Source: a virus. Taken from it: 20,034 nucleotides of DNA. Shown here piece by piece: positions 3,404-17,895 of the stretch; position 1 is the first letter of the stretch; every line of letters starts with the position of its first letter. A program made the translations under genes and the position numbers. The stretch is from positions 1-20,034 of the IMG/VR virus record IMGVR_UViG_3300030110_000660. The stretch is one strand, 5' to 3'. The notes under the pieces are model-generated. The model did not search any database. It was not told the origin of the DNA and saw nothing but the letters and a program-made list of their open reading frames with translations.

Positions 3404-3724
3404 TTATAAATCCTCCTTAGTAGTTGCTATAAATATAGGAGTGCCTTCTCCATGCCATGCTCCTACACTATTGTAATCAAAATATTCTATAGCCATTTCT
3501 TCTGCAGCATCTCTGCTTTCACAGTCAGGGTCTAACATGAACTCATCAGTTAATATTTCTACACATTTCTTCGCATCGTATATAGCTATCGGACCTTTAT
3601 ATTGTTGATATCCTAATCCTACAAAGGCATCTTCATAATTGTCATATAACATGACGGATTCTTCAGACGCTTGTAGATATGAATCTAATTTATCTTTTAA
3701 CGATTCCTTTTTATCCTTTGCCAT
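3404..3724 (-). CDS. Unknown small acidic phage protein
   Basis: This 106-residue protein starts at the ATG at 3724, 14 bases inside the bS21 gene end, after a weak AGAG site. A longer GTG-started reading to 3775 lies over bS21 and has no better site. It begins with a lysine-rich helix (MAKDKKESLKDKLDSYL). An acidic alpha/beta body follows with segments YEDAFVGLGYQQYKGPIAIYD and AAEEMAIEYFDYNSVGAWHG. The last of these, with a GTPIFIAT strand, is a pattern often seen in small phage proteins of unknown function. No catalytic motif is evident. It is co-transcribed with bS21 and DUF3310. Confidence 0.6.
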   Translation of the reverse strand: MAKDKKESLKDKLDSYLQASEESVMLYDNYEDAFVGLGYQQYKGPIAIYDAKKCVEILTDEFMLDPDCESRDAAEEMAIEYFDYNSVGAWHGEGTPIFIATTKEDL

Positions 3725-3896
3725 TTTCTCTGCTCTTTCGTAATTTATCTTTAATTTTTTGTTGTCTTTCCACACTTTTCGGTGTGAACTCTGACTTTTT
3801 TCTATATGTTTTAATTATATCATCTTTTTCTATAGACTTTTTAAACCTTCGTAATAATTTTTCAAAAGGTTCATTTTTCCTCGCTGTTACTTTCAT
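3711..3896 (-). CDS. rpsU: Ribosomal protein bS21 homologue encoded by the virus
   Basis: This 61-residue basic protein aligns by eye along its length with bacterial small-subunit protein S21. The N-terminal MKVTARKNEPFEKLLRRFKK mirrors the family signature V.....NEPF...LRRFKR. SIEKDDIIKTYRKKSEFTPK and a basic helical tail follow. bS21 sits near the anti-Shine-Dalgarno end of 16S rRNA and affects translation initiation; it exchanges on ribosomes, so a viral copy could be incorporated during infection. The start is the ATG at 3896, overlapping the polymerase stop as ATGA, with AAGGAAG ten bases upstream. An upstream ATG nine codons earlier is unlikely. bS21 is the ribosomal protein most often reported in phage genomes, including phages of aquatic bacteria. 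Because bS21 is bacterial, it excludes an archaeal host for practical purposes. Confidence 0.9.
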   Translation of the reverse strand: MKVTARKNEPFEKLLRRFKKSIEKDDIIKTYRKKSEFTPKSVERQQKIKDKLRKSRENGKG

Positions 3897-5899
3897 AGTT
3901 TGTAATCTTCCTTTACTGCCCACGATGGCTTACATACTTCCATATCTACGCCAAGTGGGATATTTAATGTGTTTTCTTTCATTAGTTGTTTAATCTTAGG
4001 TGCTACCTCATCTAGCTCTGACTTATGTATCTCACATATAACTTCATCGTGCACTTGAAGTAGTAAATTACTTTTCTTATCTTTTAAATAATCATGTATT
4101 TCTACTATTCTTTCACTCATAATATCAGCACTTGTCCCCTGAATCAAATAATTTACACCTCTATATGCATAATCTTTTGGAACTTTGTATATTCTTCCAT
4201 ACTTATTTCTAACCCAGCCTTTAGTTTCTATTGTTTTAACTACAGAATTAAAAAACTCTTTTGAGCCTTTCATATTCTCTAAATAAGTTTGCTTGTATCT
4301 AAATGCTTCAATAGGACTAGTATTTAATTGCATGGCTAGTTTATCTTTTCCTATACCATATATGACTCCAAATGTAATGGACTTCGCTAACTGTCTATAA
4401 AACTTAAATTCAGGATTCTCCTCATCCATGTGAAAAGCTATCTTAGCCGCCTCACCATGAAAGTCCACATCTTCCTGTTTCATTAATTCATTCATCTCAG
4501 CATTATCTACATAGTGCATAAATACTCTAACTTCCATTTGTGAGTAATCATATGCCATAAGTGTGTAATCTTTACGAGGCACGAATAGATGTCTTATAGC
4601 AATCTGTGTTTTATCTTTGACATCAAACTTGTCTCCACCTAAGAAACTCCATGTATCTATCACATCATCTGTAAGTGTTACAGTAGAATCTCCCCCTTTA
4701 CTTGATACAAGTGCGGATATTCTACCTTTAACTTCATTACGTTGCTCTTCATCAAGTTCTCTATCCGCAACATATATGACATCTCTAGGTATGTTCTGTA
4801 AGTTAGGGTTGCTAGATGACAGTCTGCCTGTAACAGTGCCCCAGTTTTTAAATCCTGTATGTAATACGGGCATCTCTAAATAAGGCTCTATGTAAGTAGA
4901 GTTGAATTTATTAAGTGTTCTATATTGTCTTATTAACCCTGCTAGTGGGTGGTTGACTTGAACTAAGACAGCTTCATTCCATGCCTCAGCTCCCGTGCTA
5001 GTTTGAACAGGGGAGTGTATCCCCATCTTATTAAATATCTCCCCTATCTGTGATGGACTACTGATATTAAACTTAAAGTCTATCTTATCAAAACCTAACT
5101 CACTTTTGCCTAAATCGTATATACGTTGCTCTAGTTTATTTAATCGTGTAAGGATTTTTTTATTAGCAGTTTGTGCATACTTATTATCTACAGCAACTCC
5201 CCTGCTTTCCATATCATATAAAGCCTTACTTAATTTACATTGTAGTTTTAGTAAATCAGTCATTCCTGCTTGTTTTATTTTAGCTAATCTATCAACGTAT
5301 AGTCTTTTAGTGCATTTAACGTCTTCTATACAGTATGGACCTAACACGTCAACTGGTGCTAATGAATAGTTATCTTTCCATCTCACGCCATCAGTGCGAT
5401 TAGACTTTAAAATTTTATCAGTGTCTAAATCATACTGACCTGCAACTTCCCCATAGTCTTTTATTGTTATATCTAATAAACTTAATTTGTTTACTGTAGT
5501 CGCTTCAGTCATTCTAACCATAACTAATACGTCAATCATCTGCATATTAGAAATATCCATGCCCTGTTTTTCTAAAAACTTAGCATCAAATTTAATATTA
5601 TACCCAATAAGTATGTGACATGCCTCATTTAAAAACTTCATCAACTCATTTATATCCGACATTTCTAGATTATCCCCTTCCTCGTGTCTTACAGGAAAGT
5701 AATAAGTAGGTGCAATATCTAATATTTCATGGTTCGTTACGGGGGTAAGTCCTATACCACATAATTTAATATCGGAGTCATAAACATCTAAACCATTAGT
5801 TTCTACGTCTATTATCCAAGTGTTTATGCCACTATAGTTATTCTTAAGTGAACTAAATGTATCTTTAAAATTATCTGTATTTACTATTAATGAGTCCAT
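3893..5899 (-). CDS. polA: Family A DNA polymerase with 3'-5' exonuclease
   Basis: The 668-residue replicative polymerase has two domains. The exonuclease (about 1-210) shows DVETNGL (D31, E33), IGYNIKFDAKFL (D105) and Y189CIED193. The polymerase domain shows TGRLSSSNPNLQNIPR (357-372), motif A DYSQMEVRV (D451), the O-helix RQLAKSITFGVIYG (R502, K506, F510, Y514) and motif C QVHDEV (D618). F510 aligns with Phe762 of E. coli Pol I; Phe or Tyr there has been linked with lytic marine viruses and Leu with temperate ones. There is no 5'-3' nuclease domain. An extra stretch of about 60 residues (about 373-432) separates NIPR from the IRHLFVPRKDY strand before motif A, where E. coli Pol I has only about 15. 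The ATG at 5899 has GGGGAGGA ten bases upstream, inside a hairpin (see 5909-5940). The stop overlaps bS21 as ATGA. Confidence 0.97.
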   Translation of the reverse strand: MDSLIVNTDNFKDTFSSLKNNYSGINTWIIDVETNGLDVYDSDIKLCGIGLTPVTNHEILDIAPTYYFPVRHEEGDNLEMSDINELMKFLNEACHILIGYNIKFDAKFLEKQGMDISNMQMIDVLVMVRMTEATTVNKLSLLDITIKDYGEVAGQYDLDTDKILKSNRTDGVRWKDNYSLAPVDVLGPYCIEDVKCTKRLYVDRLAKIKQAGMTDLLKLQCKLSKALYDMESRGVAVDNKYAQTANKKILTRLNKLEQRIYDLGKSELGFDKIDFKFNISSPSQIGEIFNKMGIHSPVQTSTGAEAWNEAVLVQVNHPLAGLIRQYRTLNKFNSTYIEPYLEMPVLHTGFKNWGTVTGRLSSSNPNLQNIPRDVIYVADRELDEEQRNEVKGRISALVSSKGGDSTVTLTDDVIDTWSFLGGDKFDVKDKTQIAIRHLFVPRKDYTLMAYDYSQMEVRVFMHYVDNAEMNELMKQEDVDFHGEAAKIAFHMDEENPEFKFYRQLAKSITFGVIYGIGKDKLAMQLNTSPIEAFRYKQTYLENMKGSKEFFNSVVKTIETKGWVRNKYGRIYKVPKDYAYRGVNYLIQGTSADIMSERIVEIHDYLKDKKSNLLLQVHDEVICEIHKSELDEVAPKIKQLMKENTLNIPLGVDMEVCKPSWAVKEDYKL

Positions 5900-5908
5900 A
5901 ATTATTAA

Positions 5909-5940
5909 TCCTCCCCAAGCTGAGTCAAACTTAGGGAGGA
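5909..5940 (-). promoter_or_regulatory. RNA hairpin sequestering the ribosome binding site of the DNA polymerase gene
   Basis: In the minus-strand transcript, UCCUCCC (5940-5934), then U and AAG, pair with CUU, G and GGGAGGA (5915-5909). This gives an unbroken 11-bp helix with a ten-base loop UUUGACUCAG (5929-5920). The single G-U pair (5933/5916) would be a mismatch in the plus-strand sense, so the structure suits the mRNA. The 3' arm is exactly the Shine-Dalgarno of the polymerase, ten bases before its AUG. No U-run follows, so it is not an intrinsic terminator. It sits in the only gene-free stretch in the window longer than 50 bases. The likely role is translational control of the polymerase; the regulator is unknown. 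Confidence 0.7.
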
Positions 5941-5956
5941 AATTGAGAGGAGGTTA

Positions 5957-6709
5957 CTAAAAAGGCATCTCTACATCATCTGATGATTCAGACTTTGTAG
6001 ATACTGCATCTTTAGGTGTTTCCGTAGATGTATTGTTGTTAGAAGATGGTACGAATTTTTTACCATATCTATTGGCAAAATATTCATCGAGAGGAGTCAA
6101 TTCAGATGTCTCCTTAATTCTATCTTCCGGTATTTCAATACTCTTATCAGAAACAGTTGTAATGGTATAAGTAGTATCAGTACTCAAACCATTTCTTTTT
6201 ATTCTAAGAACACCTTTATCTAGTCCTTGCCAATCATTGTATATGTCAACAAGTTCATTCCATAGGTATCTGCCTCTTCCGAAGCTTAGAGTAATAATTC
6301 TAAAATCGTTTATAGGCTCTACGAACACCACTTTACCTGATGGTAATGTGCGTTCTTCCCAATCTAAGTCTCCTGCGAGTCCTAAGTTTGGTTTCTCAGG
6401 GTGTACGACCTCTGATACATATGCCCATAAAGCAAACTTTCTTGAAGGTACACTTCCTTCTGGAACTTCATCTGCAGGTCCTTCTTCAGTATGTAGAACA
6501 GACTGCCATCTTCCATCTTCTCTGAAAGTATGTAATCTAATCTCTGCTAGATAAGGGTCTTCAGGTGTTCCTGTTGCTATTGATTTTATGAAGGCTTGGT
6601 CACCATCTTGTTTCAAGAACAGTTCCCTGCCTAAGCTATTGTTTGATACAGAGTTTCTATTCTTTTGATAACTCTCATATCTATTTTGTATGTCGGCTAT
6701 TCCTGCCAT
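5957..6709 (-). CDS. Probable single-stranded DNA-binding protein with SSB-type acidic tip
   Basis: The protein is 250 residues and is not matched to a named family by eye. The N-terminal 180 residues are beta-rich with alternating aromatics (DPYLAEIRLHTFREDGRWQSV, RKFALWAYVSEVV, DFRIITLSFGRGRYLWNELV), compatible with an OB-fold. The last 35 residues are a low-complexity S/T/N/K linker ending in SSDDVEMPF. That tip closely resembles the bacterial SSB C-terminus DDDIPF, which recruits replication and repair enzymes. The gene sits between primase and polymerase, the usual place for a phage SSB. The ATG has AAAGGAG six bases upstream. The SSB role is inferred from tail, composition and context. 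An alternative is a polymerase accessory protein. Confidence 0.7.
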   Translation of the reverse strand: MAGIADIQNRYESYQKNRNSVSNNSLGRELFLKQDGDQAFIKSIATGTPEDPYLAEIRLHTFREDGRWQSVLHTEEGPADEVPEGSVPSRKFALWAYVSEVVHPEKPNLGLAGDLDWEERTLPSGKVVFVEPINDFRIITLSFGRGRYLWNELVDIYNDWQGLDKGVLRIKRNGLSTDTTYTITTVSDKSIEIPEDRIKETSELTPLDEYFANRYGKKFVPSSNNNTSTETPKDAVSTKSESSDDVEMPF

Positions 6710-6719
6710 CTTTTCTCCT

Positions 6720-7631
6720 TTACCAGATTCTCCGGTTTTCTATTGTTTCTTTTATTGTATCATAGTTTTTAACTTCTTGTACATCTTTATATCCTGTAGG
6801 AAGCTTTAGATAAGATATATTAACACGACCTCCTAGTCTTGTCAAGATATAATCTCTACCTTTTTCGCCTGCTTGGTCATTATCTAAACATAATATAATT
6901 TCTTTGGATGGTAATTGTAATATTAAGTCCTCTTGAACTTTAGACATTTGCATACCTAGCAAAGCAACTGCTTGATATCCTAGTTGATTTAACCACATTG
7001 CATCCAATGCTCCTTCAGTTATACATACTGCATTAGATGTATCCACTAATGGTTGCCCAAATAGTATATGAGACTTCTTAAATCCTTTGGCGTATACATA
7101 CTTTGGTACCCCAAACTCTCTTCTAATTATCCACCCAACTAGTTTTGCATCTTTATCATGAGCTGGGATTACTAATCCATTACTAGGTGTTATGCCACAC
7201 CCCCATCTATTTAATGTAAACTTATCAAACCCTCTATCAAATATCCATTTAGGCACTACATATTGTTTATATGGAAATACTTTTTCTTCAAGTGCGGGTA
7301 GTCCAAGAGGGGCGGGAGTATCTATCTCAAACATTTTTGCAGGGTCGTAACCCTCTGAGTTCTCTACCAAAAAGTCTATTATTTTACGAGCACTCCATCC
7401 CATACGTTTCCTAATAAAACTTTTTAAACTACCTTGACCACAACCAGCAAAGCATATCCATACACCTTTTTCAGTGTTTATGGCTAATGATGGTTTATCA
7501 TCCGTATGAAACGGACACTCTATATTAAACTGCTCTGCACCTAATGGTACATCTACACCAATCTTGTGTAAGATTTCAGTCCAGTCTATCATATTTTGTT
7601 TTTGTTGGTCTAATCCTGTATATGATATCAT
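6720..7631 (-). CDS. DnaG-type primase (CHC2-like zinc finger plus TOPRIM)
   Basis: This protein of about 303 residues would lay RNA primers at the replication fork. The N-terminal zinc-binding domain has CPFH (C39, H42), DKPSLAIN, and C60-FAG-C64 followed by GQGS; the second half has one residue more than the usual CFGC spacing. The TOPRIM core has VCITEGALDAMW (E206) and ILCLDNDQAGEKG (D250, D252). No helicase domain is fused; the helicase is a separate gene two genes upstream. The first ATG (7631) overlaps the zinc-ribbon gene by 56 bases and has only AAAAG nearby. The second ATG (7592, residue 14) is also possible and keeps every motif. The stop is ten bases before the SSB-like start. Confidence 0.93.
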   Translation of the reverse strand: MISYTGLDQQKQNMIDWTEILHKIGVDVPLGAEQFNIECPFHTDDKPSLAINTEKGVWICFAGCGQGSLKSFIRKRMGWSARKIIDFLVENSEGYDPAKMFEIDTPAPLGLPALEEKVFPYKQYVVPKWIFDRGFDKFTLNRWGCGITPSNGLVIPAHDKDAKLVGWIIRREFGVPKYVYAKGFKKSHILFGQPLVDTSNAVCITEGALDAMWLNQLGYQAVALLGMQMSKVQEDLILQLPSKEIILCLDNDQAGEKGRDYILTRLGGRVNISYLKLPTGYKDVQEVKNYDTIKETIENRRIW

Positions 7632-7860
7632 CTTTTACTTGTCTATATCCTTCTGGAAATGTAGTCCCACATTTTATACATGATGGGTCATCTTTTATTA
7701 TTCCTAATATTTTAACTTTTGCTGTGCCATCTGACTTTAATATCGGTACTCTCACTGTCAATCCAGTTTTAAGTTTACCATTAGCACTACATTTACCACA
7801 CCTTAATTGTAAAAAAGTTTGGTCTTTATATTTATGCATTAGCTTGCTCAATGTGTCCAT
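7576..7860 (-). CDS. Small zinc-ribbon protein between helicase and primase
   Basis: This 94-residue protein has two CxxC knuckles, C21-GK-C24 and C61-IK-C64, about 36 residues apart with beta-like sequence between (TGLTVRVPILKSDGTAKVKILGII), as in a zinc ribbon. The tail is basic (RQVKDDIIYRIRPTKTKYDRLD). The ATG at 7860 has GGAGGG seven bases upstream and lies 29 bases inside the end of the helicase gene. The end overlaps the primase start. The position suggests it helps the primase-helicase pair or binds nucleic acid. No enzyme motif is visible and I do not recognise a named family. Confidence 0.65.
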   Translation of the reverse strand: MDTLSKLMHKYKDQTFLQLRCGKCSANGKLKTGLTVRVPILKSDGTAKVKILGIIKDDPSCIKCGTTFPEGYRQVKDDIIYRIRPTKTKYDRLD

Positions 7861-9073: not shown

Positions 9074-9601
9074 CTATTCTCCTTCTTTATACTTATTTCT
9101 TAAAGATTTCTTGACTTTATATATCGAAGTATCAGTCAAATTATCTTGTATACGTTCCATAGTATAATTTTTATACTTCATTGTCAAGAACTCTTTTTCA
9201 CTTTTTTCTAAGCCTAAAGAATTTAAAAAATGGTCTAACCTAATTTCATCTATGTGATTGTCTTCACTAGGTAATAAATCTTTTAATGTAAAATCATCAT
9301 TATCTGCATGACCAGATGAGTTATTTCTATCCATACTAACTGTCTGTACCTTTTTAGTAGACTTTGTATGTAAAGTTCTTAAGGTATTTACCATTGCAGT
9401 GTGTAAATAAGTGTGAAATGACGCATTTTTATTTGGATTATACTTTTTTGCCGCTCTAATTACTGTTAATCTAAGTTCTTGGACTAAATCTTCCTTCTCC
9501 CACCCCTCAATGTAAGCATTTTGCAACATTTTATAGATTTTTGGTTCCCATTTTTCAATTAACTCATCGTTTATTTGCATTGTATCGTCTGTATTCGGCA
9601 T
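9074..9601 (-). CDS. Sigma-70-family RNA polymerase sigma factor-like protein
   Basis: This protein of up to 175 residues has a two-part sigma layout. A region 2-like segment (about 35-85) reads EGWEKEDLVQELRLTVIRAA, then KKYNPNKNASFHTYLHTAM and NTLRTLHTK, matching the core-binding and -10-reading helices. An acidic linker follows. A shorter region 4-like segment (about 130-172) has LEKSEKEFLTMKYKNYTMERIQ, then a poor recognition helix. It would redirect host RNA polymerase to viral promoters. It sits at the boundary between tail genes and replication genes, next to an HTH/zinc protein. Neither the ATG at 9601 nor the ATG at 9580 has a good ribosome site; both lie in the upstream gene, so translation is probably coupled. 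Confidence 0.8.
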   Translation of the reverse strand: MPNTDDTMQINDELIEKWEPKIYKMLQNAYIEGWEKEDLVQELRLTVIRAAKKYNPNKNASFHTYLHTAMVNTLRTLHTKSTKKVQTVSMDRNNSSGHADNDDFTLKDLLPSEDNHIDEIRLDHFLNSLGLEKSEKEFLTMKYKNYTMERIQDNLTDTSIYKVKKSLRNKYKEGE

Positions 9602-9947
9602 AACACTTGTATGAACAGTAAATATTCTTTAATTTATTCTTTATCCTTACTTTTACTATCGTTTTTCTTCTATAAAAAGGTATTTTGCACCAAGAACATG
9701 TCAATCTCATAAATCTTGAGTTAAAAGTACATTCTCCCTTGTGTATTCTACCTTTATCGGTGGTTATATCCCCACACTCTTTACAGTATACCACCTTTTG
9801 AGGTTTTGGAACCTTAGTTTGTAGGTCATTTTGTTTTAAAATGTTATGAACATAGACACGACTGACTCCTACTTTTCTACTAATCTCCGCTGAAGACATT
9901 AAAGGATACTTATTACGCAACCTTACTATCTTGTTTTTGGCTTTCAT
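9564..9947 (-). CDS. Helix-turn-helix plus zinc-finger protein, putative regulator or DNA-binding protein
   Basis: This 127-residue, very basic protein has an N-terminal helix-turn-helix (about 5-40: IVRLRNKYPLMSSAEISRKV, then GVSRVYVHNIL) of the resolvase/homeodomain-like type. Two metal-binding clusters follow. The first is C55-KE-C58 with H69/C73 downstream; the second is C84-SW-C87 with C111-SYK-C115, which resembles a TRASH/MYM-like finger. The end is basic (CYAEYRRYNANKR). The start is at a TAATG junction with the 63-residue gene, with no clear ribosome site, so coupling is likely. It may be a transcription factor working with the sigma-like protein, or a remnant of an HNH-type endonuclease; no HNH catalytic pair is visible. 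Confidence 0.7.
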   Translation of the reverse strand: MKAKNKIVRLRNKYPLMSSAEISRKVGVSRVYVHNILKQNDLQTKVPKPQKVVYCKECGDITTDKGRIHKGECTFNSRFMRLTCSWCKIPFYRRKTIVKVRIKNKLKNIYCSYKCYAEYRRYNANKR

Positions 9948-14669: not shown

Positions 14670-15479
14670 TTAATCTGTTAAACCTTGTGAGTATGCTGCA
14701 TCTTCTTGAGCTCTGCCAGCTTGAGCATAAAAAAAATCTTTAATTGCAGCATCTATCATTGGAGCTACATATAATTCATATCCTGTTACTGCCCCTATAC
14801 CTGCAGGAACAGACGTTCCGAAGGTAGGTACTGCGAGAGCACCAGCACCAGCCATAATAGCACTCCCTACAGCGATACTTATAGCTGATTGTGTAGCTTT
14901 TACTGCCTTATCTAAATCGTCTGGTTCAGCAAAAGCCGATAAGAAATCAAGACCTTTCAACCCAGTACCCAAGATACCCAAGCCTTTGAGGTATTTGGAG
15001 CCGATAACTTTGCTATCCATGGTCCTTAGACCAGATAAAGGATTTCCAGCTTGACCAAGAAGGTCTTCACTATCACCTCCTCTACCAAAGTTCAAAACGT
15101 CTCCGATTTTAGAAAATATTTTCATTACAAACTCTACTATAGTACCAATACCAGCTGCTGCCTTTTTTAAAGGGTCAAAAAACTTCATTATAAACTTTAG
15201 TCCGCCTTTTAATAATGGGAAAAAACCCATTAACAAAGTGTCTACAAATGCACCAACTATTTGGAATAAAGACCCAATAAAACCAGTAAAAATAGATGAT
15301 TGTTTTAAAATACCGGCTAAAGTAAGTTGAATACCTATTTGTTGTTGCAGAGATTTTTTATTAGTTCTTCTGTTATCTTCTTTTTCCATGTCACCCTTTT
15401 TATCTTTAAGGGCATCATCTTGACCACCACCAGTAGAAAGAGCGTCTTGCATTAAAAATCTATATATTGACTCAGCCAT
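14670..15479 (-). CDS. Short tape-measure-like tail protein
   Basis: This 269-residue protein lies directly after the G/GT chaperone frames, the standard position of the tail tape measure. A charged N-terminal coil (about 20-45, KDKKGDMEKEDNRRTNKK) precedes several hydrophobic helices: SIFTGFIGSLFQIVGAFVDT (about 61-80), LLMGFFPLLKGGLKFIMKFF, and a glycine/alanine-rich SIAVGSAIMAGAGALAVP near 200. Tape measures set tail length at about 1.5 angstrom per residue and insert into the host membrane; by that rule this one would give a tail of only about 40 nm. An alternative is a minor tail or membrane-penetrating protein. The start is at a TAATG junction with the GT stop, with AGAGGA upstream. Confidence 0.6.
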   Translation of the reverse strand: MAESIYRFLMQDALSTGGGQDDALKDKKGDMEKEDNRRTNKKSLQQQIGIQLTLAGILKQSSIFTGFIGSLFQIVGAFVDTLLMGFFPLLKGGLKFIMKFFDPLKKAAAGIGTIVEFVMKIFSKIGDVLNFGRGGDSEDLLGQAGNPLSGLRTMDSKVIGSKYLKGLGILGTGLKGLDFLSAFAEPDDLDKAVKATQSAISIAVGSAIMAGAGALAVPTFGTSVPAGIGAVTGYELYVAPMIDAAIKDFFYAQAGRAQEDAAYSQGLTD

Positions 15480-16104
15480 TAGTATAATCCTCTAGAACTT
15501 GTATTAAATTTAGGTGCGGGCATACGAGTTGCAGATTGTTCTTTTAATTTTTCTGCTTCTTTTTCTTTAATTGCTATTTTTGTTGCTAAAATCATAATGT
15601 ATTCAATGTCTGTTAAATTTTTAATTTCAGAAAATGATAAACCCATCTCCATTAATGTGTTAACCATGGTCCAAAATTTATATAAAGCCGCTTCCTCTGT
15701 ACTGACCTGTACTCCCCTAAGAAAACGGTCTATCCTTTTTTTATTGAATCTATATCTAATTCTTCATTAGTAAATGCTTTAGGAACTACAGCTTCTAAAG
15801 CTTGTCCAAGTTTAGAGTCAATACTCATTAAAAAGGCATCTGTTGTTTTACCCCACGGAGCATCTGTAACTATTTCTTTTAATACTTCTTTGACGTACCT
15901 ACTTCCATCAAAATTAGTCTCTCCACCACTACCAAATGACATACATTCAGTAACAAGTTGATTTTTTCTAAACCATGTTAAAGGCTTAATCTCAACTTTA
16001 AACTTGTCCTCTCCTACCTCTACTTCTATTATTTCTCTGTCTGTCGCATTTATTTTGTATTTATTTACGTCAAAACTTTTCTGTGCTGGGTCTTGTGTTG
16101 TCAT
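15479..16104 (-). CDS. GT tail assembly chaperone made by -1 ribosomal frameshift
   Basis: The product is about 208 residues: residues 1-123 of the G protein, then a switch into the -1 frame at A AAA AAA (15742-15736). It continues RIDRFLRGVQVSTEEAALYK, FWT, and MVNTLMEMGLSFSEIKNLTD onward to the stop at 15479. The -1 frame has no stop between the heptamer and 15479, and the ATG at 15667 inside it has no ribosome site, so a separate T gene is unlikely. The T part is helical and charged (IMILATKIAIKEKEAEKLKE), as in gpT of lambda. In long-tailed phages a fixed G:GT ratio guides tail tube protein onto the tape measure. It lies between major tail protein and tape measure as expected. Confidence 0.85.
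15730..16104 (-). CDS. Tail assembly chaperone G protein (unshifted product)
   Basis: This 124-residue protein is produced when the ribosome does not shift. Its body FKVEIKPLTWFRKNQLVTEC and RYVKEVLKEIV, then SIDSKLGQALEAVVPKAFTN, has the helical make-up of gpG-type chaperones. The zero-frame end reads DSIKKG and stops at TAG, only two codons after the slippery run. The ATG at 16104 follows AAGGAG seven bases upstream, just after the stop of the major tail gene. It should bind unassembled tail tube subunits. The family call rests on position, size and the frameshift more than on a unique motif. Confidence 0.85.
   Translation of the reverse strand: MTTQDPAQKSFDVNKYKINATDREIIEVEVGEDKFKVEIKPLTWFRKNQLVTECMSFGSGGETNFDGSRYVKEVLKEIVTDAPWGKTTDAFLMSIDSKLGQALEAVVPKAFTNEELDIDSIKKG
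15736..15742 (-). promoter_or_regulatory. Slippery heptamer A AAA AAA for -1 programmed frameshift
   Basis: Seven A residues precede GGA TAG in the G reading frame (ATA AAA AAA GGA TAG). Both tRNA-Lys anticodons can re-pair after a one-base backward slip, entering the open T frame. A weak GACC/GGTC pairing (about 15730 to 15704) and a small GTAC/GTAC hairpin lie downstream and might stimulate shifting; neither is strong. Confidence 0.85.
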
Positions 16105-16113
16105 CTATTCTCC

Positions 16114-17895
16114 TTATATATAAACTCCTTTAGAGTCTGTTACTATTATTTTCATATTTCTAAACAGTATGTCTACATCAGTTTGAATTATAGGGTCTCC
16201 TGTTATATTATATGGAGCAGATAAAATAAATGCTCCTTGTTCATTTAACCCTGTACCCGCCCCTGTAGTCTCATCACCTGACGTATAGTCGTTAGGTATT
16301 AATATTTGAATTGTATCATTAGTTCCTCTAGTAAATGTCAACTCAATGTTAAATCCTTTCAATCCATTCCCATCTCCAAAATTACCTTCTAACAATAATT
16401 GTTTAAATATTTCGTTAGCACTATTTACAGTAGTCGCAGTATTAGCAACAGTATCTGGTAATGCGATTGTACAAGCCATTGAATATGACCTTCTACCTTC
16501 TCTAAATTCACTTGGTCCTCTATGTCTACCATGCCTTGGACTTATATAGTATCTAGGCTCTACTGAGTTAGCTATTGAAATAGAAATACTTCTTACTCTA
16601 GCAAACTCTTGCCCAAATAATTTAAAACTACCTTGAGAGAAATAATAAGGTTCAGTGCTTGGGAAATCAATATCAGAGCTTGTAATCTTGTTCATAAGAG
16701 CAAATCTTGGCATACCTGCTGGAGCATTACTTGAATTGAAAAGATTAGTTCCAACACTCCCTTGGTCTTCTTGATTATGAATCATATCTAAGAAGGGCAC
16801 AGAGTCATAACTCATCATTAACATTCCACCCTCAGCTGCACTTATAGTAGCACTATCTACAATACCGCCTACATATCTTCTTTGTAAATCATTATCAGCA
16901 GTTTCTGCAGTGTCTCTAAATAATACATTCCATGATAAAGTATCTAAATCAAAAGCTTCTTCAATTGTATGAGTAAAGACAGGACTTGCTGCACACTCTT
17001 GAAAGTGAGTATTCGCCAAATGGTCAAATCTTAGTGGCTGAGATAATTGAACAAACGTGCTAGTTCCGCTACCTGTTACACTTTGAACTTTTACTACTTC
17101 TGGATTTGTTCCAGATTGGACAGTCGTGCTACTTATAGCACTGCCAGCTTCATCTGTCATATGTACAAATTTTCCAGCACCTATATTAGTGTTCTCTTTT
17201 ACGTTAATCCACACATCACCTTTTTTCGCTGCTGTCTGTAACTCAGTTGAAATTTCACCTGAACCTAAATATAAATTAGGGTTAGTTTTCATTGTACCTA
17301 TTGGGAATCTCAAAGGAGTAGCGTCTACTACAACAAAACTTGATAATGCCCCATTGAAAGTCTGAGCCCCTGAATAAGCTGTGGTAAAGTTTCTAGCTGA
17401 TGATGTACCTAATAGATATCTAGGCTCAATAGCCGGTGTAAAATCTGGTAAAGTAACACCTTCATATATGCCGGGAACAGTTGTTATATAAGGATAAAAT
17501 GTATCTGCAGTAGTATTAGCTACGTTAGTTACTTCTTCTACATCGTCACCACTAGCATGGAAAAAAGCTAGAGGTCTATCTAAAAAGAAAGTGCCAGCTC
17601 CAGATGTAGCACTTGTGTGCACTATTCTTCTTATTTCAAATTCTTCTGATACATTGCTATCAATAGTTGCGTCTGCATTACTAGGACCACCAATACGAAT
17701 AAAATCACCTACAACGACATTTCCAGTTTCTGCCACTGTTATTTGGGTAGCTCCAGCATTTGCAGCAGCTGATAAAGTTGTGTCTATATCACTACCACCT
17801 CCAACACGAGTACCTGAAATTAATTCAGGGTCTCCTCCCGGTGCGGCTTCTGCTGACATTGTTAATTGTGCTTGGTCACTTCGATAGACTGCCAT
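16114..17895 (-). CDS. Probable major tail (tube) protein with inserted beta modules
   Basis: This 593-residue, beta-rich protein lies just before the G/GT chaperones, where the tail tube gene normally lies. Two copies of a beta module occur, at residues about 38-121 (ITVAETGNVVVGDFIRIGG, then FFLDRPLAFFHASGDDVEEV) and about 217-301 (WINVKENTNIGAGKFVHM, then QLSQPLRFDHLANTHFQEC). The C-terminal third (RSYSMACTIALPDTVAN, GNFGDGNGLKGFNIELTFTR, GAFILSAPYNITGDP) resembles tail tube beta-barrel sequence. It is longer than usual tube proteins of about 150-400 residues, so the modules may decorate the tail surface. The ATG at 17895 has AAGGAG six bases upstream and a candidate promoter before it. 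A tail sheath is an alternative, but I see no sheath motif and no separate tube gene. Confidence 0.6.
   Translation of the reverse strand: MAVYRSDQAQLTMSAEAAPGGDPELISGTRVGGGSDIDTTLSAAANAGATQITVAETGNVVVGDFIRIGGPSNADATIDSNVSEEFEIRRIVHTSATSGAGTFFLDRPLAFFHASGDDVEEVTNVANTTADTFYPYITTVPGIYEGVTLPDFTPAIEPRYLLGTSSARNFTTAYSGAQTFNGALSSFVVVDATPLRFPIGTMKTNPNLYLGSGEISTELQTAAKKGDVWINVKENTNIGAGKFVHMTDEAGSAISSTTVQSGTNPEVVKVQSVTGSGTSTFVQLSQPLRFDHLANTHFQECAASPVFTHTIEEAFDLDTLSWNVLFRDTAETADNDLQRRYVGGIVDSATISAAEGGMLMMSYDSVPFLDMIHNQEDQGSVGTNLFNSSNAPAGMPRFALMNKITSSDIDFPSTEPYYFSQGSFKLFGQEFARVRSISISIANSVEPRYYISPRHGRHRGPSEFREGRRSYSMACTIALPDTVANTATTVNSANEIFKQLLLEGNFGDGNGLKGFNIELTFTRGTNDTIQILIPNDYTSGDETTGAGTGLNEQGAFILSAPYNITGDPIIQTDVDILFRNMKIIVTDSKGVYI

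Follow-up and report, generated by a model that had tools for sequence, protein, structure and literature searches.

What is the role of a stable RNA hairpin that lies just ahead of a phage's DNA polymerase gene, in the only gene-free gap of more than 50 bases that its genome contains? Most detailed knowledge of how phages regulate the translation of their replication genes comes from T4-type phages, and a preliminary description of this locus reasoned by analogy with them, proposing that the hairpin occludes the ribosome binding site of the polymerase gene. The window – the whole stretch of DNA analysed – is a complete 20,034-base virus record in IMG/VR, the main genes of which all lie on the minus strand; at the locus itself the gene order is sigma factor, DnaB-type helicase, small Zn-ribbon-like gene, primase, ssb, polymerase (pol) and bS21. 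Searches with the polymerase, SSB, helicase or tail-tube proteins found no isolated relatives. A gene at 16114-17895 (minus strand) encodes a protein whose C-terminal third resembles the tail tube proteins of the haloarchaeal viruses HCTV-5/HVTV-1 (26% identity, E 1e-7). The parts of the locus, all on the minus strand and given in the order of transcription, are as follows.

7576..7860, minus: small Zn-ribbon-like gene in the helicase/primase interval, encoding a CxxC...CxxC protein; its presence tracks the element
5957..6709, minus: ssb gene, the upstream cistron; stop codon 5959-5957; acidic ...DDVEMPF tail
5949..5954, minus: ACCUCC motif, single-stranded; present in 31/32 distinct leaders, UCUCCC in L066
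5941..5948, minus: linker joining the motif to the stem, variable in sequence; almost always 8 nt long (9 in L013)
5930..5940, minus: 5′ arm of the hairpin, UCCUCCCUAAG
5920..5929, minus: loop of the hairpin, UUUGACUCAG
5909..5919, minus: 3′ arm of the hairpin, CUUGGGGAGGA, which includes the pol Shine-Dalgarno (SD) sequence GGGGAGGA (5916-5909)
5900..5908, minus: AU-rich spacer from stem to start codon, 9 nt in the window
3893..5899, minus: family A DNA polymerase gene, led by the element; PF00476 E 9e-79, PF01612 E 1e-5, phrog_17 E 8e-113
3711..3896, minus: viral bS21 gene; PF01165 E 1.4e-9; its ATG overlaps the pol stop codon (AUGA)

By Pfam the polymerase combines a family A domain (PF00476) – the assignment already made in the preliminary description – with a 3′-5′ exonuclease domain. 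Pfam and PHROG searches gave no match for the ssb product. Its AlphaFold model (pLDDT 72.9), when compared with the PDB by Foldseek, returned T4 or RB69 gp32 at each of ranks 1-6, and VIA-align superimposed it on gp32 over 166 residues (Z 9.5, rmsd 4.5; the next unrelated row has Z 4.4). Because this structural match is joined by an acidic C-terminal tail, the modelled product is identified as a gp32-fold single-stranded DNA binding protein.

In the minus-strand transcript TCCTCCCTAAG (5940-5930) pairs with CTTGGGGAGGA (5919-5909), forming a helix of 11 bp, one of them U-G, around a loop of ten bases, TTTGACTCAG; this is the structure originally reported ahead of the polymerase gene. The minimum free energy fold of the leader reaches -20.8 kcal/mol (z -4.66; 0/200 shuffles as good), and folding of the plus strand was rejected (z -0.6). 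For the window alone the optimal fold adds two inner pairs, giving 13 bp and a 6-base loop; near relatives such as L002 adopt the 11-bp form only. Across both strands of the 20-kb window it is the only G+C-containing stem of at least 11 bp (at most one G-U pair, loop of 3-12), the one further stem within those length limits being without any G-C pair. Rfam 15 offered no family at gathering score, its best being a microRNA family on the other strand with 16 bits against 63. That the hairpin occupies the only gene-free gap longer than 50 bases also stands, since the one other gap of such length between open reading frames, 15668-15729 (62 nt), contains no stop codon in the -1 frame downstream of an A-rich slip site in a tail-chaperone gene. 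The tail-assembly-chaperone pair in question (15730-16104 and 15479-15667, minus strand, spanning 15479-16104 of the window) has the slippery sequence ATAAAAAAAGG ahead of the first stop and a -1 frame open into the second reading frame; a programmed -1 frameshift is likely.

A hairpin between two genes might simply be a transcription terminator, or mark a promoter or some other DNA-level element. A terminator is contradicted by what follows the stem, UUAAUAAUU, which has no T run and receives no terminator call. For a promoter there is a weak sigma-70-like match, TTGACT-16-AATAAT at 5928-5901, which overlaps the loop, but its hexamers are not conserved in relatives. The pattern of substitution in the stem, considered next, tells against selection on DNA, and we regard all readings of this kind as highly improbable.

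About 90 related loci emerged when the polymerase was used as a query. The hairpin is present in all 60 related leaders (32 distinct) whose polymerases are about 58% or more identical to that of the window. All but one of the polymerase lineages at about 58-61% identity or more carry the element; L021, the only close polymerase relative without it, has its pol start 116 nt from the end of the locus, with unrelated sequence upstream, and may represent either an assembly edge or a true loss. Polymerase relatives at about 50% identity lack it, and a profile search of genome contigs with the polymerase alignment added relatives at 23-28% only. Among the leaders that carry the hairpin the stem sequences diverge widely – UCCUCCCUAAG/CUUGGGGAGGA, GCAGCCCUCAG/CUGGGGGUUGC, AAGUCCUUCGG/CCGGAGGACUU and AGACUCUCCGG/CCGGGGGGUCU are examples, and there are others – and the pairing is maintained. 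MAFFT misaligned the repeated CCTCC, and the structural alignment was therefore made by hand, the real loops being swapped for one fixed string in the alignment that was counted. In the alignment of 23 leaders, standard pairs fill 96.8% of cells, a share that drops to 72.8% on shuffling and to 63.9% or less on sliding out of register; both sides have changed in 10 of the 11 pairs; and the covariation score is 0.854, against 0.359 for shuffles (0/500 reach 0.854) and at most 0.234 for slid alignments. Aligning stems by hand favours the chosen register, but the gap in scores is so large that this is unimportant. Since shuffles take no account of kinship, changes were also counted by parsimony on a polymerase tree of the 32 leaders, which required 30 double compensatory changes in the true register and 0-2 in slid ones. 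The hairpin is thereby confirmed as real and strongly conserved. The compensatory changes that the preliminary description had suggested seeking in related phages do exist, and homologous leaders retain the pairing on which its case depended.

The same alignment identifies the molecule on which selection acts. Among 352 cells, 41 are G-U and 3 are A-C, and because G-U pairs so far exceed A-C mismatches it is the folded mRNA, and not the DNA, that has been selected. Structure is also concentrated at one place in these genomes: the mean folding z is -4.12 at pol starts, -0.30 at ssb starts, and about -1.0 to +0.3 at the starts of genes other than pol, with the exception of g3404 (mean z -2.2), where the structure lies inside the coding sequence and is not conserved in the window's clade. 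Where the module was found it occurs once per record and always before pol, a count made with a covariance model (R1) that covers the distant clade only. R1 was built from that clade alone and detects it but not the window's clade, so it provides no independent detection of the window's copy. Further pattern scans revealed no new setting for the element.

The most conserved part of the leader is not the hairpin but a motif that the preliminary description missed, ACCUCC at 5954-5949, with a mean unpaired probability of 0.81. The one distinct leader that departs from it, L066, keeps the hairpin and has UCUCCC at the motif position. The distances from ssb stop to motif and from stem to AUG vary (the latter mostly 8-13 nt in relatives, up to 19) and the distance from motif to stem is fixed; motif and hairpin therefore constitute one module. 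The loop too has a consensus, AUGUCCU, in most of the distant clade. ACCUCC is identical to the core of the anti-SD sequence of 16S rRNA. A search from -400 to +300 of the AUG found no conserved pairing partner for the motif, which sometimes pairs with the element's own 3′ arm. Pairing of the loop or of ACCUCC with the ssb ribosome binding site looked suggestive by eye in some clades (loop UGUCCU against AGGACA); the idea was not adopted, since the match is lost in L034, L036, L038 and L066, in which the loop or the ssb site has changed.

Does the hairpin, then, act by hiding the polymerase SD? In the window's clade the SD GGGGAGGA, 9-10 nt from the pol ATG at 5899, lies wholly inside the stable stem at a functional distance from the AUG, and the 3′ arm has an unpaired probability of 0.01-0.03. 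To this extent the original claims – that the 3′ arm carries the polymerase SD, and that the hairpin occludes it – agree with the geometry. In sister clades the purine arm either lacks an SD-like GG (L057) or lies 12-18 or more nt from the AUG; at other genes of those genomes, by contrast, strong SDs are mostly found 3-10 nt from the start. With the arm too distant, or lacking an SD altogether, occlusion is not the whole conserved function; it fits the window's clade and would there be a local form of something wider. The interpretation first offered is thus partly supported. Regulation by temperature, a further possibility, would call for a different kind of helix: a perfect and very stable stem, preserved by covariation, is not what one expects of an RNA thermometer with a graded response.

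The leader could instead be a passive device, one that insulates pol from ssb translation, guards the 3′ end of the ssb mRNA against exonucleolytic attack or marks where the RNA is processed, and so yields much SSB and little polymerase with no regulator at all. The distribution of SDs is what such a device would predict, being strong on ssb (near-perfect and at 4 nt in sister clades) and weak or distant on pol, and the ssb-pol gap of some relatives without the element contains a different hairpin (L076/L077, L078, L083). But nothing in a passive role needs a conserved ACCUCC at 8 nt or a conserved loop, and we think it unlikely. The gap hairpins in those element-lacking relatives are strong and unrelated to the one described here; that of L078 looks like a terminator, and L083 has GGGGGGC-UUU-GCCCCCC before GGAGG, which may form alternative structures.

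In a sister clade (L152-L169) with polymerases about 50% identical to that of the window, the order ssb-pol-bS21 is the same, and there is neither hairpin nor ACCUCC; the pol AUG abuts or overlaps the ssb stop in most records (UUUUAAAUG, UAAAUG), an arrangement implying that pol is coupled to ssb. Between the two genes of the element-bearing clade, by contrast, lies a leader of about 55-85 nt, so that the element appears to replace coupling with a separate point of control for pol. Readthrough of the ssb stop codon, or an ssb-pol fusion, was considered and rejected, the pol frame upstream not being conserved as open. At the other end of pol, most element-bearing relatives have a bS21 start that either overlaps the pol stop codon or lies next to it; bS21 is probably translationally coupled to pol, and control of pol should therefore reach bS21. 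In L036 and L038 about 550 nt are inserted between pol and bS21, and the element before pol is kept.

Two genes accompany the element throughout. bS21 is found in 30/30 element-bearing records searched, and the Zn-ribbon-like gene in 25/25 element-bearing against 0/25 element-lacking records, the latter having unrelated small open reading frames in the helicase/primase slot. The element-bearing phages, however, all belong to a single clade of common ancestry, and such co-occurrence is consequently weak evidence; the Zn-ribbon protein is a candidate trans factor by co-occurrence only. Its AlphaFold model (pLDDT 41.5) was unusable. Separately, the gene at 9564-9947 (minus strand), ahead of the sigma factor, encodes a protein with weak HTH and Zn-finger-like matches that has no tblastn match in the element-lacking loci listed.

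The constant company of bS21 suggests one specific reader. ACCUCC and the CU-rich/GA-rich stem could imitate the anti-SD and the SD-anti-SD duplex of the 30S platform, in which case viral bS21, or 30S subunits bearing it, would bind the leader and regulate the pol-bS21 pair. The motif is the anti-SD core and bS21 belongs to the same operon, although the order of motif and hairpin in the leader is opposite to that of helix 45 and the tail in 16S rRNA. The sister clade L152-L169 has bS21 without the element, so bS21 does not need it, and the presence of bS21 as a sufficient cause of the element is refuted; L066, conversely, has bS21 and hairpin without ACCUCC. There are precedents: the bS21 of Halalkalibacterium binds a CCUCCU-containing mimic of the SD/anti-SD duplex in OLE RNA (PMC12054373), and that of Flavobacterium autoregulates by way of ribosome composition (PMC9976891). 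The Flavobacterium mechanism, however, needs strong SDs in a host otherwise blind to them, and these phages use SDs widely. On balance we consider binding by bS21 distinctly unlikely; a leader read as an anti-SD mimic by phage bS21 or bS21-carrying ribosomes might let ribosome remodelling feed back on the synthesis of polymerase and bS21, an idea we hold to be quite doubtful.

The gp32-fold SSB is another potential reader. Once single-stranded DNA is saturated it could nucleate on the hairpin, spread over the AU-rich pol start and repress pol. T4 gp32 represses its own mRNA by nucleating on a structured site that has AU-rich RNA after it, and the M13 SSB, gp5, represses the mRNA of another replication gene (PMC535899); here too a hairpin precedes an AU-rich start region, and the gene upstream encodes the gp32-fold product. 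Yet the element comes after ssb and not before it, no pseudoknot is predicted (by a folding method that does not predict pseudoknots), sister phages with related SSBs lack the element, and non-specific binding leaves the invariant ACCUCC unexplained. Repression by the SSB is therefore improbable.

Our preferred reading is that the element acts as a translational operator on pol and, through coupling, on bS21, read by a candidate trans factor; we put the probability of this at roughly 60%. The leader stem-loop is very probably a real and previously undescribed switch or brake on polymerase synthesis. In the operator model the ssb-pol intercistronic RNA would form a self-contained cis-acting element – ACCUCC, 8 nt, 11-bp hairpin – controlling translation of pol and, via coupling, of the overlapping bS21 cistron. 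In the window's clade the predicted pairing of the pol SD with the anti-SD, at about -11.4 kcal/mol, is far weaker than the stem, at -20.8; pol would therefore be poorly initiated by default, and ssb, with its strong, open SD, would be well translated. More broadly, the stem would by default leave the region where pol translation initiates either inaccessible or poorly positioned. A trans-acting factor would then read the single-stranded ACCUCC, the loop and the stem at their fixed geometry and so set the closed or the open state. Candidate ligands encoded by the phage are the gp32-fold SSB, the polymerase itself, bS21 or bS21-bearing ribosomes, and the Zn-ribbon protein. A compact element at the ssb/polymerase/bS21 junction of an abundant, uncultured and probably marine phage group provides a concrete, testable link between replication proteins and the still unexplained bS21 encoded by phages.

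How does the element compare with known systems? The T4/RB69 gp43 operator, which a family B enzyme binds, has a small hairpin of 16-18 nt whose loop is UAAC and which sits some 40 nt before the start codon, the operator reaching into the ribosome binding site (PMC3014915). In both systems a phage DNA polymerase gene is led by an RNA hairpin and the operator overlaps the ribosome binding site. Here, by contrast, the stem is of 11 bp with an SD-like arm inside it, the loop is UUUGACUCAG or of the AUGUCCU type, there is an additional ACCUCC motif, and the enzyme belongs to family A; binding has been shown for T4, the operator here being a predicted one. The T4-type parallel drawn in the preliminary description thus fails on architecture and on polymerase family, and the gp43 operator is an analogue at most: the leader hairpin is shared, but two other defining features, the small UAAC-type hairpin at its distance from the start and the family B enzyme, are not found here. 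A functional analogue, in which the family A polymerase binds its own leader, would be in keeping with an element found only before pol and in nearly every polymerase lineage above the identity limit given earlier. The unlike architecture, together with polymerase relatives at about 50% without the element, argues against it; so, as weak evidence of absence, does a small literature search in which no family A polymerase with autogenous translational control was encountered. We judge autogenous control to be rather remote.

With the operators of T4 gp32 and M13 gp5 the element shares structured RNA followed by an AU-rich start, as well as a gp32-fold SSB encoded next door, and with gp5 a possible action on the mRNA of another replication gene. 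It differs from the gp32 operator in leading pol and not ssb, and no pseudoknot with UUAAA-type repeats is seen in the ssb leader by folding that does not predict pseudoknots. Like SD-sequestering leader hairpins it has, in the window's clade, an SD fully within a stable stem; unlike them it has an invariant 5′ motif at a fixed distance, and its SD spacing is not conserved in sister clades. The OLE RNA mimic bound by bS21 and the autoregulatory leaders of ribosomal proteins offer a third likeness, in a CCUCC anti-SD-like sequence, a CU/GA-rich duplex and a bS21 gene in the same operon, and viral bS21 does enter ribosomes (PMC6375957). OLE, however, is a noncoding RNA of ~600 nt from Bacillota and ours a short leader predicted from genomes, and other bS21-bearing relatives do without the element. 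Viewed against all of these, it is an RNA element of a general kind already known, proven by covariation but not described before, and set apart by an unusual anti-SD-like motif.
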